Of a DNA stretch of 64,000 nt, positions 13,111 through 19,287 are shown piece after piece (positions within the stretch are counted from its first letter, which is position 1; each line of letters opens with the position of its first letter). The notes below the pieces were generated by a model that saw only the letters and a list, made by a program, of their open reading frames with translations, did not search any database and was not told where the DNA came from. This stretch comes from Streptomyces sp. CB03234 (GTDB lineage Bacteria; Actinomycetota; Actinomycetes; Streptomycetales; Streptomycetaceae): assembly GCF_001905885.1 (NCBI RefSeq), contig NZ_LIYH01000005.1, positions 434,001 through 498,000 of the forward strand. The letters run 5' to 3'. The position numbers were made by a program, and so were the translations under genes.

Positions 13111-13974
13111 ATGTCCTCCGTGATCGCTGTGACCGGGGCGAGCGGCCGTATCGGCGGCCGCGTCGCCCGCCGCCTCGCCGACCGGGGCGTGAAGACCCGG
13201 CTGCTCGGCCGCGACCCGGCCCGGCTGCCGGAGCTGCCGGGCGCGGTGAAGGCGCCCGCGCCGTACGGGGACGGCGAGGCGATGCGCCGCGCCCTGGACG
13301 GCGCCGGCACGCTGTTCCTGGTGTCGGCGCACGAGAGCCCCGACCGGATCCAGGAACACCGCACGGCGATCGACGCGGCGCTCGCGGCGGGCGTCGGGCG
13401 GATCGTGTACGTGTCGTTCCTGGGCGCCGCGCCGCAGGCCACGTTCACCTTCGCGCGCGACCACTGGCACACCGAGCGGTACATCGAGGGACAGGGCGTC
13501 CCGCACACGTTCCTGCGCGACAGCTGGTACCTGGCCGGGTTCGCCGCGATGACCGGCGAGGACGGTGTCATCCGTGGCCCGGCGGGCTACGGGCGGGTCG
13601 CGGCGGTCGCCCACGAGGACATCGCGGACGTCGCGGCGGCGGTCCTGCTGGGCAACGGGGACCACGACGGCGCCACCTACGACGTCACCGGCGAGGAGGC
13701 CCTCACCCTCGCCGAAGCGGCCGCCGAACTCTCCCGCGCCACCGGCCGCACCATCACCTACGTCCCCGAGACCCGCGCCGAGGCCTACGCCTCCCGCGCC
13801 CGGTACGGCGCCGAGCACTGGGAGGTCACCGGCTGGGTCACCTCCTACGAGGCGATCGCCGCCGGCGAGATGAGCACGGTAGCCGACACGGTCCGCCGCC
13901 TCACCGGCCACGCCCCGATGACGCTCCGCGAATACCTCACGGCCCACCCCCGCTCATACGCCCACCTGGTCTGA
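13111..13974 (+). CDS. NmrA-like NAD(P)-binding SDR family protein
   Basis: The 287-aa protein starts with a classic Rossmann glycine motif (VTGASGRIGG) and has the NmrA/atypical-SDR pattern: FLVSAHES, IVYVSFLGAAP, a substrate region with RDSWYLAGF, and YDVTGEEALTLAEAAAELS. It lacks the classical YxxxK catalytic pair, so it may be a redox sensor or an isomerase/reductase of unknown substrate. It starts 13 bp after the GNAT gene and converges with the following lipoprotein gene with only 2 bp between them. Confidence 0.85.
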   Translation: MSSVIAVTGASGRIGGRVARRLADRGVKTRLLGRDPARLPELPGAVKAPAPYGDGEAMRRALDGAGTLFLVSAHESPDRIQEHRTAIDAALAAGVGRIVYVSFLGAAPQATFTFARDHWHTERYIEGQGVPHTFLRDSWYLAGFAAMTGEDGVIRGPAGYGRVAAVAHEDIADVAAAVLLGNGDHDGATYDVTGEEALTLAEAAAELSRATGRTITYVPETRAEAYASRARYGAEHWEVTGWVTSYEAIAAGEMSTVADTVRRLTGHAPMTLREYLTAHPRSYAHLV

Positions 13975-13976
13975 CG

Positions 13977-15472
13977 TCATGGAGCCCGGGCGTAGAGGAA
14001 ACGCTGCCCTTCGTCCGTCCTGGACGTCACCTGGAAGGTCCCCTTCAGGCGAGGGGACGTGAGCGTCAGCGTCCCGCCCTTCAGGGACACGTCCCTGTCC
14101 CGGGGGTCGAGGGGCGTCCCGTAGTAGAGCTGTCCTTGCATGGGCACCTCGGCGACGGTGACGCCGTCGATGCCGAGGTTTCCACCGCGCAGCCTGAAGT
14201 GCAGACGGGCCTTGGTGACGATGGTGAGGGGCAGTTCGTCCGTGGTGTAGAAACCCGTCCCGCCCAGGGTGCCGGTGGCCGCGCTCAGGGGGGCCAGCAG
14301 AATCCACTTGCTCTTGTCGTTCATGCCGGCGACGAACGGTTCGATGTCCGGCGCCAGCTTCCTGTCCAGGGCGGCCGCGCTGTCCTCGATGCCGCGCTTC
14401 ACGTCCGGTGGCAGGGGCTGTGCGGCGGGGACGACGCCTTTCAGCACGATGTCCTGAGGGGTCACCGGCTCCGGCTCCTCGACGAGGATCCGCCGCGCGT
14501 TCAGCCCCATGGCGTCGGCGGTGAAGAGGGCGTTCGCGCCCACCGCGTACGGCTCGAAGTTCTTGTTCACGGCCCTCAGCGGCTTCAGCGTGCCGGTCAG
14601 CCGGCCCCGCACCTGGGCGGGGTCGTCGGGGCCCTCCACCGACGCCATGGCCACGGCCATCGACTCGAAGTAGCGCGCCGAACCTTCCATCGCGTCCAGC
14701 ATGGGCTGGGTCTTCGCCTCATCCGGGTACGTCGCCGCCCAGCTCCGCTGCCAGTGCGCCGCTGCCGCCAGGTGCTTCCGGCGACGCTCGCCCGGCTCCT
14801 GGTAGGCGGCGAGGAGGCTGTTGTAGACCATCGTGCGGTACGCACGGGGTCGGACCGCGTCGGATAGTGCTGAGCCCGGCTGTCCTCGCTGCCCTCTGCC
14901 CGCTCCTCCAGCGCACGGAGCGACTGCCAGGCCCAGCCGCCGCCCTTGTCCTTCTGTACGTAGGTGTGGAACTGCTCGTGCGTCGCGAGGCCGAAGGTGT
15001 GTACCGCCACGTCGGCCGTGTCGAAGCCGGTCGGGCCCACACCCGCCGTGCGCGGCGGCCTGACGATGATGCCCCGGCGCCCGCCCCAGGTCACGGCCTC
15101 GAAACCGTCCTCGTTCGGCGGGACGGTGATCCCGCCCTTCGCCAGGTCCGCGAGCGGCACCTCCCGCTTCCCGTCCTTGTCGACGGCCCACGCGCCCCGC
15201 CCGTCCGAGACCAGCAGGACATGGCGGGTGAAGTCCGCACCGGGCCAGATGCGCGCCGTGCGGGGCCAGACGGCGGCCACGTACCCCTGGAGCCGGGACG
15301 CCAGCTCCGGCAGGGGCGGGGCGGTCGACTCGGCCGCGCCGGCGCTGCTCCTGGCCGAGGGCGGCGCCTCGGGCTGTGCCTCGGGCTGTGCCGCGTCGGC
15401 CGCACATCCGGTGGCGGCGGCCAGGAGCAACGCCACGAGGCCGGAGACGTACGCGTTGCCTGTCGCTGTCAC
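13977..15472 (-). pseudogene. Putative HExxH-containing lipoprotein, frameshifted
   Basis: The N-terminal part (from GTG 15472) encodes a lipoprotein signal with an AATGC lipobox near residue 23. It continues through a folded-looking domain ending in THEQFHTYVQKDKGGGWAW, an HExxH metal-site-like motif. The C-terminal half, starting around AYRTMVYNSLLAAYQ, is in a different frame and runs to 13977. The frames cross somewhere between 14845 and 14890, on the minus strand around SRAQHYPT. Neither half alone makes a complete protein. The cause may be a sequencing error or a true decay event. The function is unknown: an extracellular, membrane-anchored protein, possibly a metallopeptidase. Confidence 0.7.
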
Positions 15473-15540: not shown

Positions 15541-15729
15541 TCAGTCCTCGCCCCGGACGATGTTGCCGTCCCGCACGGGAGCTTCGGGCTCCGTACCGAC
15601 AACGGCGGCCTGGTACAGGCGGATACGTCCACGGAGCTCACGCCTCATCGCGATCGGCCGGTCAAGGGACTCCGTGACCTCGGGTATGCCGGGCACGGAC
15701 TCGCTGCTGGGCCCTGCTTGCGTCTTCAT
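15541..15729 (-). CDS. Possible small hypothetical protein
   Basis: A 62-codon reading frame beginning MKTQAG and ending IVRGED has a protein-like composition, unlike the arginine/glycine-rich shadow frames nearby; it includes a charged segment with AMRRELRGRIRLYQAA. An upstream ATG at 15747 would add six residues (MGYPYR). No good ribosome site is visible, but a TTGACC hexamer lies just upstream, near the edge of the long inverted-repeat element. I do not recognise a family. It could be a real small gene truncated or re-promoted by the adjacent element. Confidence 0.4.
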   Translation of the reverse strand: MKTQAGPSSESVPGIPEVTESLDRPIAMRRELRGRIRLYQAAVVGTEPEAPVRDGNIVRGED

Positions 15730-15781
15730 GCGATACGGGTACCCCATAAACGCGGACGAAACGGTCAACAGGCTCCGGGGG

Positions 15782-16310
15782 TGGGCGTGCTGTTCATGGC
15801 GGCCGGTGTGGGCCGCCGCCCTTGGGGTGGGCGGTCCGGTCATGGTGACCGTGCGGGCCACCGCCCTCGGGCTGGGCGCCCAGCCCATGGTGGCCGTGTG
15901 GGCCGCCCTCTCTCCGAGTGTGGCGGGCTCCAGCGCCCCCTCAAGGGCGCTTCGCGTCGGCTTCGCCGATGGGCTTCGCCCACCCTTGACCGGCCGCCTC
16001 CGCCCGCCTTTTCCCACTCGGAGGGCGGCCCGGGGGAACGGGCCCAGGAGGGGCGCGCCTTTCCCCGTGCCGTTCGTGGCCAGGAGGCGGGCGCTGGAGG
16101 GGCGCGGCAGTGGAATGGGGTGCTCGCTGTCGGCTCGGCGGCGGGCCGCCGTCTGTGGGTTGCGGTACAAGACCTCGCTCCGGTGGGTGGGGGTGCGCCC
16201 CAGTGGTGTGGGGCATCTGGGCTGGGTTCGGCGGCTGCGGGTGGGTGAGGGGTCGGAGTTCAGGCAGGTGGCTGGGGTGGGTTCGGGGCTGGGCCGGGGT
16301 GTAGCCCTGT
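15782..16310 (+). repeat. Left arm of the long inverted repeat
   Basis: Pairs with 17019-17547. The outer ~25 bp and the inner ~120 bp show scattered differences, while the ~385-bp core is nearly perfect. Several internal short palindromes such as GGGCGCCC are present, so each arm could fold on its own. Confidence 0.9.
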
Positions 16311-16499
16311 CCGGCCGGGACCCGGCGGGGGCACCGGGTGCCGGGGCGGTGAAGCTCCCGGCGCGGCCTGGTCTCCGGCGGGCCCGGGGCCGGGGCCTCC
16401 GGACGGTCGGGCGCGGCCGGGTCGGCCCGGCCTCCGACACCGGCCGCCGTGGCATGCCTGCTGCTGCCCTGCCCGGGGCGCTCGAAGTCCGGGAAGGGG

Positions 16500-16932
16500 C
16501 GGCCCCTTCGGCCTCTCCGGTCACAGTCGTGTCGGCTCACTGGGGTTGTGTGCGGGATCGGACACGCGTGTCGGGATGCTCGTGGTCGGGAGGTGTCCTG
16601 CTCCGCACACAACTCCCCGGCTGTGGTGCCGGTGTGGTGGCGGGGACCGGTGAGGCGTCCTGTCAGCCGTCGTGCCCCGTGACGGTGCCAGGTCGGCCCC
16701 GGCATCCGGGACCCAGCCCCCTCGCCTCGAGGAGTCGGGCGGGGTCCGGTCACCGGTGCCCCGCAAGGTGCGTCCCCGGGGGGCCCGGACACGTCATCGG
16801 ACCTACCGGGCGGGCCCCTCCGCCCTCTCCAGTCACACCCGTCTCGCCTCACCGGAGTTCTGGGCAGGATCGGACACCCACAGCCCCCGACACCACGGCG
16901 GGGAGGTGTCCCACACCGCACACAACTCCCCC
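16500..16932. repeat. Degenerate direct repeat inside the spacer of the palindromic element
   Basis: A ~120-bp block at 16500-16620 recurs at about 16813-16932. Shared landmarks are CTCTCC-GTCAC, GGATCGGACAC, GGGAGGTGTCC or GGGGAGGTGTCCC, and CGCACACAACTCCCC. Identity is clearly lower than between the inverted arms. No gene is evident. Confidence 0.7.
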
Positions 16933-17018
16933 ATCCCGGCGCTGCTGTGACCGAGGAGACGGGTGGGACCTGCCCTGCGTGGCAGGCGGGGCCGGTGAGC
17001 CTCGGGCGCCGCTCCGCC

Positions 17019-17547
17019 AGGGCAACACCCCGGCCCAGCCCCCGCCCCACCCCAGCCACCCGCCTGAACCCCAACCTCTCACCCACCCGCAGCCGCCGAG
17101 CCGGGCCCGGATGCCCCATGCCACTGGGGCGCACCCACCACTCACCGGAGCGAGGTCTTGTACCGCAACCCACAGACGGCGGCCCGCCGCCGAGCCGACA
17201 GTGAGCACCCCATTCCACTGCCGCGCCCCTCCAGCGCCCGCCTCCTGGCCACGAACGGCACGGGGAAAGGCGCGCCCCTCCTGGGCCCGTTCCCCCGGGC
17301 CGCCCTCCGAGTGGGAAAAGGCGGGCGGAGGCGGCCGGTCAAGGGTGGGCGAAGCCCATCGGCGAAGCCGACGCGAAGCGCCCTTGAGGGGGCGCTGGAG
17401 CCCGCCACACTCGGAGAGAGGGCGGCCCACACGGCCACCATGGGCTGGGCGCCCAGCCCGAGGGCGGTGGCCCGCACGGTCACCATGACCGGACCGCCCA
17501 CCCCAAGGGCGGCGGCCCACACGGCCAGCGATGACCAGCACGCCCGC
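17019..17547 (-). repeat. Right arm of the long inverted repeat
   Basis: Reverse-complement partner of 15782-16310. Near-identity of the core implies recent duplication or continuing gene conversion between arms. Confidence 0.9.
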
Positions 17548-17589
17548 CCCGGGGCGGGGAGGGCGCCGTAGCGTGAGCCGGTCTTCCCT

Positions 17590-17970
17590 CTAGGGCGCGT
17601 CGTCCCGCTCGGCGAGGCCCCGCTCGACGCAGAACTCGTTGCCCTCGGGGTCGGCCAGGGTCACCCAGCCTCGCCCGTCGGGCACGCGGTGGTCGGCGAC
17701 GACCGTGGCGCCCAGCGCGACGAGGCGCTCGACCTCCTCGTCCCGGGACCGGTCCTGGGGCTGGAGGTCCACGTGGACCCGGTTCTTGACGGTCTTGGTG
17801 TCCGGCACGGCCACGAACAGCAGCGCCGAGCCGGGCGCGACGACCAGGGCTTCGGGGTCGCCGGGGGAGTCCTCGTCGGTGACCTTGCCGTCGAGGACGG
17901 CGGCCCAGAACTGCGCCAGGCTGTAGGCGTCGGAACAGTCGAAGGTGAGGTGGCGCACGAGAGAAGCCAT
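17590..17970 (-). CDS. VOC family protein (glyoxalase/bleomycin-resistance-like)
   Basis: The 126-aa protein is a single vicinal-oxygen-chelate module pair: RHLTFDCSDAYSLAQFWAAVLDG at the N-terminus, VHVDLQPQDRSRDEEVERLVALGA in the middle, and TLADPEGNEFCVERG at the C-terminus. This is the common Streptomyces glyoxalase-like arrangement. The substrate is unknown. The start at 17970 begins MASLVRHL, the usual start for this subfamily. Confidence 0.88.
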   Translation of the reverse strand: MASLVRHLTFDCSDAYSLAQFWAAVLDGKVTDEDSPGDPEALVVAPGSALLFVAVPDTKTVKNRVHVDLQPQDRSRDEEVERLVALGATVVADHRVPDGRGWVTLADPEGNEFCVERGLAERDDAP

Positions 17971-18099
17971 GAGGCGCACTATCCGGCGGGGGTGGTCCGC
18001 TTGTCCACCGCGTTTTGCGTGGACGTACATCCTTCGATGTAGCGCGAGTTCGTCTGTGCTCACGACGTTTCGGGCCCCGGCCGCCGGGACGCTGGACGT

Positions 18100-19287
18100 A
18101 TGACCGAGACTCTTCGCGTTCCCGCACCGACGACCGCCGGTTCCCCGAAACGGCTCGCCCTCCTCGACGTACTGCGCGGGGTGGCGATCCTCGGGACGCT
18201 CATGACGAATGTGTGGGTGTTCACGGGGCCGGGGGCGGAGTGGGGCGTCCTGCAAGGTTCCCTGGGGGAGACGTCGTTCGGGTCGTTCCCGGACGCGGCC
18301 GAGAGTGTGTTCCGGCTGCTGGCGGACGGGAAGTTCCTGTCGATGCTGACGATCCTGTTCGGGGTCGGGCTGGCGATCCAGTACGGTTCGGCGGCCAGGC
18401 GCGGGCAGCCGTGGCCGGGGCGGTACAAGTGGCGGGCGCTGTTCCTGTTCGGGGAGGGGGCCGTGCACTTCGTGCTGGTCTTCGCGTGGGACGTGCTGAT
18501 GGGGTACGCGGTGACCGCGCTGCTCGTGGCCTGGCTGCTGACCCGCTCGGAGCGGGCGTGGCGGCGCGTGATGTGGTGGGCGGCCGGGGTGCACCTGACG
18601 GTGATCGGGCTGCTGACGGCGGCGCTGGCGTCGGCCCCGGAGGGCTCCCCGGCGGACGGTGGCGGCGTCTCGCGGGAGGTCGTCGACCTGTACGCGCACG
18701 GCAGCTGGGCGGACCAGATCGCCTTCCGCCTGGAGAACGCGATCGCCCTGCGCATGGAGCCGGTCCTGACGTTCTTCCTGCTCCTGTTCCTCTTCCTCCT
18801 CGGCGTACGGCTCTTCCGGGCGGGCGCCTTCGGGGCGGACGAGGCGGCGCGGCGGATCCGGGCGCGGATGCTGGCGTGGGGGCTGGGGCTGGGTGTTCCG
18901 CTGAACGTGGCGGTCGCGGTGGGCGGTGGGGACTTCTTCCTGCTGGGGCGGTACGGGGCGGCGCCGCTGATGGCGGTCGGGTACATCGGCCTGATCGGGG
19001 CGGTGGTGGACCGTGTGCGGCGTCCGGGGCCGGTGATGAACGGCCTGACGTCCGTGGGCCGGATGGCACTGTCGGGTTACGTCGCGCAGAACGTGATCTG
19101 CATGCTCGTCTCGTACGGCATCGGCCTGGGCCTGGCGGCCGAGCTCGGTGAGCCGTGGCGGCCGTGGTGGGTGATGGGGCTGTGGGCGGCGGTGTCGGTG
19201 GTGCTGCTGGTGGGCTCCAAGCTGTGGCTGCGCCGTTTCCCGACGGGTCCGCTGGAATCCGTACAGAAGTGGGCGCTGCGTCGCTGA
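18100..19287 (+). CDS. DUF418 family membrane protein
   Basis: The 395-aa integral membrane protein starts with the family signature RLALLDVLRGVAILGTLMTN. It has about ten hydrophobic segments and ends with the DUF418 C-terminal block (MNGLTSVGRMALSGYVAQNVI, then a WLRRFPTGPLE motif). The role of the family is unknown; members resemble acyltransferase-3-like or transporter-like membrane proteins. Confidence 0.9.
   Translation: MTETLRVPAPTTAGSPKRLALLDVLRGVAILGTLMTNVWVFTGPGAEWGVLQGSLGETSFGSFPDAAESVFRLLADGKFLSMLTILFGVGLAIQYGSAARRGQPWPGRYKWRALFLFGEGAVHFVLVFAWDVLMGYAVTALLVAWLLTRSERAWRRVMWWAAGVHLTVIGLLTAALASAPEGSPADGGGVSREVVDLYAHGSWADQIAFRLENAIALRMEPVLTFFLLLFLFLLGVRLFRAGAFGADEAARRIRARMLAWGLGLGVPLNVAVAVGGGDFFLLGRYGAAPLMAVGYIGLIGAVVDRVRRPGPVMNGLTSVGRMALSGYVAQNVICMLVSYGIGLGLAAELGEPWRPWWVMGLWAAVSVVLLVGSKLWLRRFPTGPLESVQKWALRR

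Follow-up and report, generated by a model that had tools for sequence, protein, structure and literature searches.

A dispersed chromosomal palindrome of Streptomyces sp. CB03234 and its possible relationship to the single-module sso-like sites of actinobacterial rolling-circle elements

The window analysed in this work, a stretch of 64,000 nucleotides from contig NZ_LIYH01000005.1 of Streptomyces sp. CB03234, contains a long palindrome which, judging from sequence comparison, is fairly probably a copy of a dispersed, non-coding and non-autonomous element composed of two sso-like modules in opposite orientation. Each copy of this element would comprise two inverted arms of ~400 nt and a spacer usually of 0.3-0.8 kb. 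The original prediction, made from the letters of the same stretch, described the inverted arms and missed the cloverleaf module common to these arms and to rolling-circle mobile elements.

Structure of the element in the window

The palindrome is a 1,779-bp inverted repeat, delimited by repeat detection and gapped self-BLAST (Table 1). The long inverted arms first described are real: they measure 535 and 536 nt, align at 856 bits and enclose a spacer of 708 nt. At seed level the arms (15775-16193 and 17135-17553) comprise 419 nt that are 98% complementary, and an inward extension (16191-16324 and 17003-17136) adds 134 nt at 85%. The degenerate direct repeat reported in the spacer was found as well, as matching blocks of 70 nt (80%) and 65 nt (72%); the two spacer repeats, of ~150 nt each, are ~312 nt apart.

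Table 1. Features of the palindromic element and their positions in the window
Feature	Position	Strand	Remarks
Whole palindromic element	15775..17553		genome copy C9:449775-451553
Left arm, A type	15775..16309	+	gapped self-BLAST, arm tree
Right arm, also A type	17018..17553	-	95.5% identical to the left arm
Outer ~45-bp tandem units, left arm	15778..15899	+	unit count differs among copies
Left cloverleaf (four-way-junction, sso-like) module	15930..16002	+	covariance-model match C9:449930-450002, 80.4 bits; four-way-junction fold
Right cloverleaf module, inverted	17326..17398	-	covariance-model match C9:451326-451398, 80.4 bits
Spacer between the arms	16325..17002		no Pfam domain
First spacer repeat	16496..16652	+	contains inverted repeat 16542-16565 / 16593-16616
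Second spacer repeat	16808..16965	+	72-80% like the first spacer repeat

No Pfam domain was detected in the five overlapping ORFs scanned in the window copy, in agreement with the lack of recognised coding content noted at the outset, and no Rfam match at E ≤ 1 was obtained between window positions 14000 and 19500. The neighbouring genes, according to Pfam, are of the NmrA-like (13111-13974), Glyoxalase_6 (within 17590-18699) and DUF418 (18100-19287) types, and the neighbour called at 14597-15472 has no Pfam match. A short ORF (15541-15729, minus strand, ~62 aa from an internal ATG) was seen by eye to the left of the element. Besides, glyoxalase/VOC-type genes seem to be recurrent beside elements or an empty site (window 17590-17970 and the flanks of loci L085, L135 and L190), the assignment being confirmed by Pfam for the window gene alone and judged by eye from the DNA at the other three loci.

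Copies in the genome

In the search for further copies that the original prediction had suggested, the window element gave 108 matches across this 7.77-Mb genome of 13 contigs, far more than chance would produce, and these correspond to 20 inverted-pair loci in different flanks. All 20 loci contain paired inverted arms, and a covariance model of the conserved core of the arm recovered 40 matches in this genome, arranged as 20 plus/minus pairs. The copies are located on four of the 13 contigs (C1, C6, C9 and C10). The near-identity of the arms that had been emphasised holds for the window copy but is not a trait of the family, since the two arms of a copy are 75-96% identical over the set of 20. 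Spacers measure 322-821 nt in 15 copies, ~1.0 kb in one and ~1.5 kb in another, and three of the 20 copies are continuous palindromes by alignment. The element has no fixed outer ends, which merge instead into a 45-bp tandem repeat of variable unit number. A long array of this outer unit was observed in copy L026 (6013-6417), where the edge of the element behaves as an expanding tandem repeat. It seems unlikely that the palindrome is an assembly artefact, because the copies differ from each other (arms of the same type from different elements have a mean identity of 89-90%) and their flanks are unique.

The cloverleaf module

What is conserved in each arm is a four-way-junction module of ~60 nt. 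It has an outer stem, CAAGGG/CCCTTG, together with three hairpins whose loops are mostly C[TNC]G and thus C[GNA]G on the opposite strand. Triloops of the GNA type are known to form very stable DNA hairpins. The module was studied in an alignment of 40 sequences chosen for diversity from 82 distinct ones (own genome, relatives, Actinokineospora and plasmids). The resulting structure has 25 pairs, with 89.4% of the 970 cells paired and 103 unpaired. Changes on both sides were found in 12 of the 25 pairs compared with 6.6 in shuffled alignments, none of the 500 shuffles being as high. The covariation score was 0.156 versus 0.051 in shuffled and 0.021-0.052 in slid controls, a value that is flattered because the structure was derived from the same 40 sequences, and the count of further pair types was not above the shuffles (240/500). 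Watson-Crick combinations occupy 864 cells and G-U only three, 62 cells are double-changed, and the C[TNC]G motif appears in 88 of the 115 triloop hairpins counted. This pattern of covariation, with three G-U against 62 double-changed cells, together with the type of loop, points to a module acting as DNA and not as RNA, which would fold into a four-way junction either as single-stranded DNA or as an extruded cruciform.

When folded as DNA, the window module forms a four-way junction on both strands (z -2.7 and -2.0). Elsewhere the values were -10.4 (L095) and -4.3 (L156), and for two plasmid copies (L182, z -0.7; L183, z -0.9) the fold was barely stronger than in shuffled sequences. The covariance model distinguishes the strands clearly, for instance with 80 versus 41 bits at L095. 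Rfam gave no match at the module in six other loci, the matches obtained being two tRNAs beside integrases.

The module in plasmids and integrative elements of other genera

The module is present in 58 of 296 genomes of the class, which belong to 21 of 114 genera, the own genus included. Under stricter filters and with at most the best 15 candidates per genome, the set from other genera comprised 48 genomes and 95 matches at E ≤ 1e-6; RepSA, defined as PF20199 at E ≤ 1e-15, was found in 40 of these 48. Among the matches listed, 51 of the 95 are within 15 kb of repSA (1.2 expected), and none of these 51 shares the strand of repSA, all being on the opposite one. The distance between module and repSA varies from 0.9 to 13.6 kb, on either side. 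These 51 matches come from 33 genomes and, owing to the relatedness of AICEs, they are not independent events, so the orientation statistic is inflated. The other 44 of the 95 matches listed have no RepSA within 15 kb; draft assemblies and short contigs may account for some of them, and other replicon types are possible. RepSA was also recognised in six of the 20 other-genus loci fetched (60 of 115 called ORFs scanned), and a tRNA stands beside the integrase in both of the two RepSA loci searched with Rfam.

Several plasmids carry the module too. In a Curtobacterium plasmid of 1,579 bp it is flanked by copG and by a Rep-like ORF that is encoded on the other strand and whose similarity to Rep_trans is weak (E 1.8e-4, under the curated cut-off). 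In two Micromonospora plasmids typed as MOBP it lies ~0.2 kb upstream of the mobC-relaxase region, again on the opposite strand, mobC being named in one record and the relaxase in the other. The Kocuria module is found between a gene for a TraM-recognition domain and ardC, whereas one Glutamicibacter plasmid has a single module and another has two direct copies. The module was also detected in Rhodococcus, on a Mycobacterium linear plasmid and on a linear plasmid of S. mirabilis. In AICEs and plasmids the module is usually single, while in Streptomyces-type chromosomes it mostly forms inverted pairs. Outside the module, the window arm shows no homology to the other-genus loci fetched. A phage search for the element and an exact 32-mer search of IMG/VR gave no match, and a genome scan with an overly strict 37-mer matched one Actinokineospora contig.

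A proposed explanation: paired sso-like modules

Sites of the sso type are orientation-specific (PMC4595007), and AICEs replicate autonomously with initiators of the rolling-circle type (PMC3218068). A fixed orientation combined with a free distance, in elements of this type, fits an orientation-specific sso. Since its strand is always opposite to that of the nearby repSA while the distance varies, the module is predicted to be the sso of AICEs and plasmids, that is, a folded site on the displaced ssDNA at which second-strand synthesis would be primed. The evidence of orientation concerns the single module and not the chromosomal pairs, for which we infer a descent from rolling-circle elements. 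Hypothetically, a ssDNA intermediate would have been primed by fold-back at its own sso and copied into two opposed halves, and the product would have spread later by means of ssDNA intermediates supplied in trans.

The absence of related Rep, integrase or excisionase proteins near the chromosomal pairs argues against two opposed sso-like modules: in tblastn searches with five queries, including RepSA, Int, Xis and the Curtobacterium Rep, no AICE or rolling-circle protein was found at 68 Streptomyces-type element loci, and the same searches detected RepSA, Int and Xis in AICE loci as a positive control. A gene family with an HTH, seen beside two groups of relatives' loci and with no Pfam match at E ≤ 0.01, was dropped, tblastn having given no match at the copies of this genome. 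A wider proposal can be put forward only tentatively: that actinobacterial rolling-circle elements share one cloverleaf sso, and that a new class of mobile DNA, consisting solely of two opposed copies of it, has invaded Streptomyces chromosomes on repeated occasions. Such palindromes would be created by fold-back sso priming, and conversion between arms would maintain them and keep them uniform in the central part of the chromosome.

Distribution in other Streptomyces-type genomes

Relatives of the element exist in other streptomycetes, as was initially supposed: with the best two candidates per genome scored, arm matches at E ≤ 1e-8 were obtained in at least 44 of 295 genomes, the own genome included, and none of the matches listed contains the full 400-nt arm in another genome. 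The loci of the relatives are imperfect palindromes, mostly of 0.65-1.1 kb, and the common part is mostly found at arm positions ~124-262. In four of 20 loci fetched from relatives (L076, L077, L090 and L091, the last one truncated by a contig end) the self-palindrome is absent at the threshold used.

The covariance model gave 83 matches in genome G240, which correspond to 40 plus/minus pairs, whose spacing peaks near 693 and 898 nt, and three others. G004 has eight matches, and 14 of 18 further genomes had matches to the model; 13 of these 14 were chosen for a prior match, and among the five unselected genomes G062 alone matched, G005, G012, G046 and G064 giving no match. Considering the 14 further genomes of the same genus (G004 and 13 others), 108 matches include 37 plus/minus pairs separated by less than 3 kb, and no neighbouring matches in another orientation were found among them. 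Pairing is not universal, as 34 of these 108 matches have no partner at the thresholds used (12 in G062), in addition to the three extra ones of G240. Matches to the module toward one chromosome end were observed in G011 (C1:8.20-8.91 Mb) and in G026 (C1:10.41-10.42 Mb), a genome of another genus that is outside the 14-genome pair count; in both, they are distant from the middle of the chromosome, in contrast to the central clusters of other genomes. Besides, the two G240 copies L160 and L161, of ~9.5 kb, have in common a ~9-kb insert of low GC content (64%), mostly ~90-95% identical where aligned. An rRNA cargo in these two copies was rejected, with no Rfam match.

Empty sites in the nearest relatives

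The nearest relatives among 392 genomes, G225 and G266, are ~90% identical to this genome over the cobN region. G225, examined by BLAST and with the covariance model, gave zero model matches at E ≤ 1e-3 and short, weak BLAST matches (best E 2e-5); in G266, examined by BLAST, no copy was found with the whole element, the matches again being short and weak (best E 4e-5). By their coding flanks, 19 of the 20 loci have at least one flank in G225, and the twentieth (L024) was placed in G266, a partial 81% match in G225 being discounted. Clean empty sites, of the kind the original prediction had proposed to look for, were found at L024, L034, L039 and L040, where the two flanks are 16-46 nt apart in one relative or both; in the case of L040, G225 has ~0.5 kb of different DNA at the site. 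At some other loci, additional genes differ as well between this genome and the relatives. At the window locus, the left flank is conserved in G225 to within 11 nt of the element, and the sequence then passes directly to the DUF418 side, so that neither the element nor the glyoxalase gene is present; G225 also has no counterpart of ~1.6 kb further left, which overlap the gene called at 14597-15472. The flanks of locus L088 (genome G014) match those of two elements of this genome, L022 and L027, one of them inverted, hinting at possible rearrangements near these palindromes.

Resident sites or classical transposition

The elements could also be old resident sites of the chromosome (e.g. nucleoid or replication-restart sites near oriC), retained because of some function for the host and since lost from certain species. 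This is unlikely, in spite of a marked central clustering: the 40 pairs of G240 span 1.55-6.51 of 8.45 Mb (58.7% of the chromosome, dnaA at 3.55 Mb), none of 100,000 uniform draws being as narrow, and the flanks of 19 of the 20 copies of this genome fall at 2.16-5.20 of the 7.08 Mb of G225, with dnaA at 3.63 Mb. Some loci are also orthologous among groups of related species, and several loci of other species are near loci used in this genome. However, G225, G005, G012, G046 and G064 have no match to the model, the four clean empty sites are difficult to reconcile with old residence, the matches of G011 are at 8.2-8.9 Mb of a 9.0-Mb chromosome whose dnaA is at 1.98 Mb, and the copy number ranges from 0 to ~40 pairs.

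The MITE-like nature first suggested is partly retained, as the element is multi-copy and non-coding, with inverted ends and empty sites. Nevertheless, a classical large MITE, in which a DDE transposase acting in trans would cut and paste terminal inverted repeats, is quite unlikely. No target-site duplication and no fixed element end were seen in 15 junction views at 10 loci, where the flanks have diverged to ~81-94% identity; the ends dissolve into the variable 45-bp array, and conservation is centred on a structured module inside the element and not on its tips. A transposase partner was sought in the 13 long-spaced copies of G240 (seven ORFs scanned), some of which contain other genes. Four of them have transposase ORFs, which belong to unrelated IS (IS4-type in L163 and IS5-type in L166; the ORFs of L164 and L167 have the same size and the same first 60 residues as that of L163) and represent nested insertions without a common partner.

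Linear replicon ends, arm types and transcripts

It is very unlikely that the elements are remnants of fused ends of linear replicons. The linear Streptomyces plasmid NZ_CP109028.1 has one module ~0.6 kb from each end, pointing outward (L156 and L157), and an end-to-end fusion would give the chromosomal arrangement. This is, however, one plasmid only; the copies examined in S. mirabilis and in plasmids of other genera are not at linear ends, and no telomere-like array was recognised by eye at the centres of the elements.

Returning to the paired sso-like modules, the tree of the 40 arms splits into two types, A and B, ~80% identical to each other. Both types are joined in 13 of the 20 elements, and the other seven have homotypic arms. 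The own arms of the 13 A/B copies are 79.6% identical, compared with 79.8% for A and B arms of different elements, hence no selection for arm complementarity is visible in these copies. The window copy, which is A/A with 96.1% identity in the 40-arm alignment, is the extreme of the family, and its right arm is equally close to the right arm of copy L022 (96.3%). As most copies are A/B, the near-identity of the window arms is probably best explained by an A arm that converted a B arm, which supports the gene conversion invoked in the original prediction.

The same figures weigh against a source of long hairpin RNA, another of the initial suggestions, or a bidirectional transcription terminator. 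A transcript would form a hairpin of ~420 bp, the neighbouring gene has its 3' end toward the element at 25 of the 40 edges (by rough gene calls, a near even split), and several edges abut stop codons as seen by eye. But own arms match no better than arms of other elements, the module covaries like DNA with almost no G-U pairs (3/970 cells), and neither the element region nor the module in six other loci matched Rfam, which makes this reading highly improbable.

Repeats of the REP/BIME kind mobilised by a RAYT (Y1 HUH transposase), which the intergenic inverted pairs of hairpin modules bring to mind, are hardly credible, because the units are far larger than REPs and Y1_Tnp (PF01797) had no match at E ≤ 1e-3 in the element carriers G000 (the own genome), G240, G004, G283, G285 and G149, on which ground mobilisation by a PF01797-type RAYT was rejected; among the 11 genomes searched, PF01797 matched in G113 alone.

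Implications

If the module is indeed an sso, it would make the second-strand origin of actinobacterial integrative elements recognisable by sequence, and such an origin could turn into a dispersed chromosomal palindrome. It would also account for long palindromes between genes that carry no annotation, flag possible hot spots of insertion or recombination in antibiotic producers, and predict orientation effects that can be tested. No published account of the element or the module was recognised in a literature search made on partial texts and with subscription journals mostly outside its scope, and the available part of the AICE survey (PMC3218068) does not describe such a second-strand origin.

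Comparison with known systems

Bacterial MITEs are non-coding and dispersed, with inverted repeats and empty sites. The present element differs from them in its much larger arms, in its unfixed ends, in that no transposase partner was found among the ORFs scanned and in that no target duplication was seen at junctions with diverged flanks. REP/BIME elements are intergenic inverted pairs of structured modules; here, on the other hand, the units are mostly of 0.5-1.8 kb, with a few tens of copies and no RAYT. The palindromes of Streptomyces telomeres form hairpins with GNA-type loops on one strand, a feature shared by the module, which moreover occurs close to either end of one linear plasmid, whereas the elements are internal in the chromosome.

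The sso of rolling-circle plasmids and ICEBs1 (PMC4595007) is non-coding, has several stem-loops that are active as ssDNA, is orientation-specific and is carried by rolling-circle and conjugative elements, and in these respects the module, as a putative sso, resembles it. The module is set apart by its fold, a four-way junction, and extends across the Actinomycetes, and in Streptomyces-type chromosomes it mostly occurs as inverted pairs without a Rep gene. Unlike AICEs of the pSAM2 type (PMC3218068), the window element is devoid of rep, int and xis genes, while the module itself lies near repSA, on the opposite strand, in 33 genomes.
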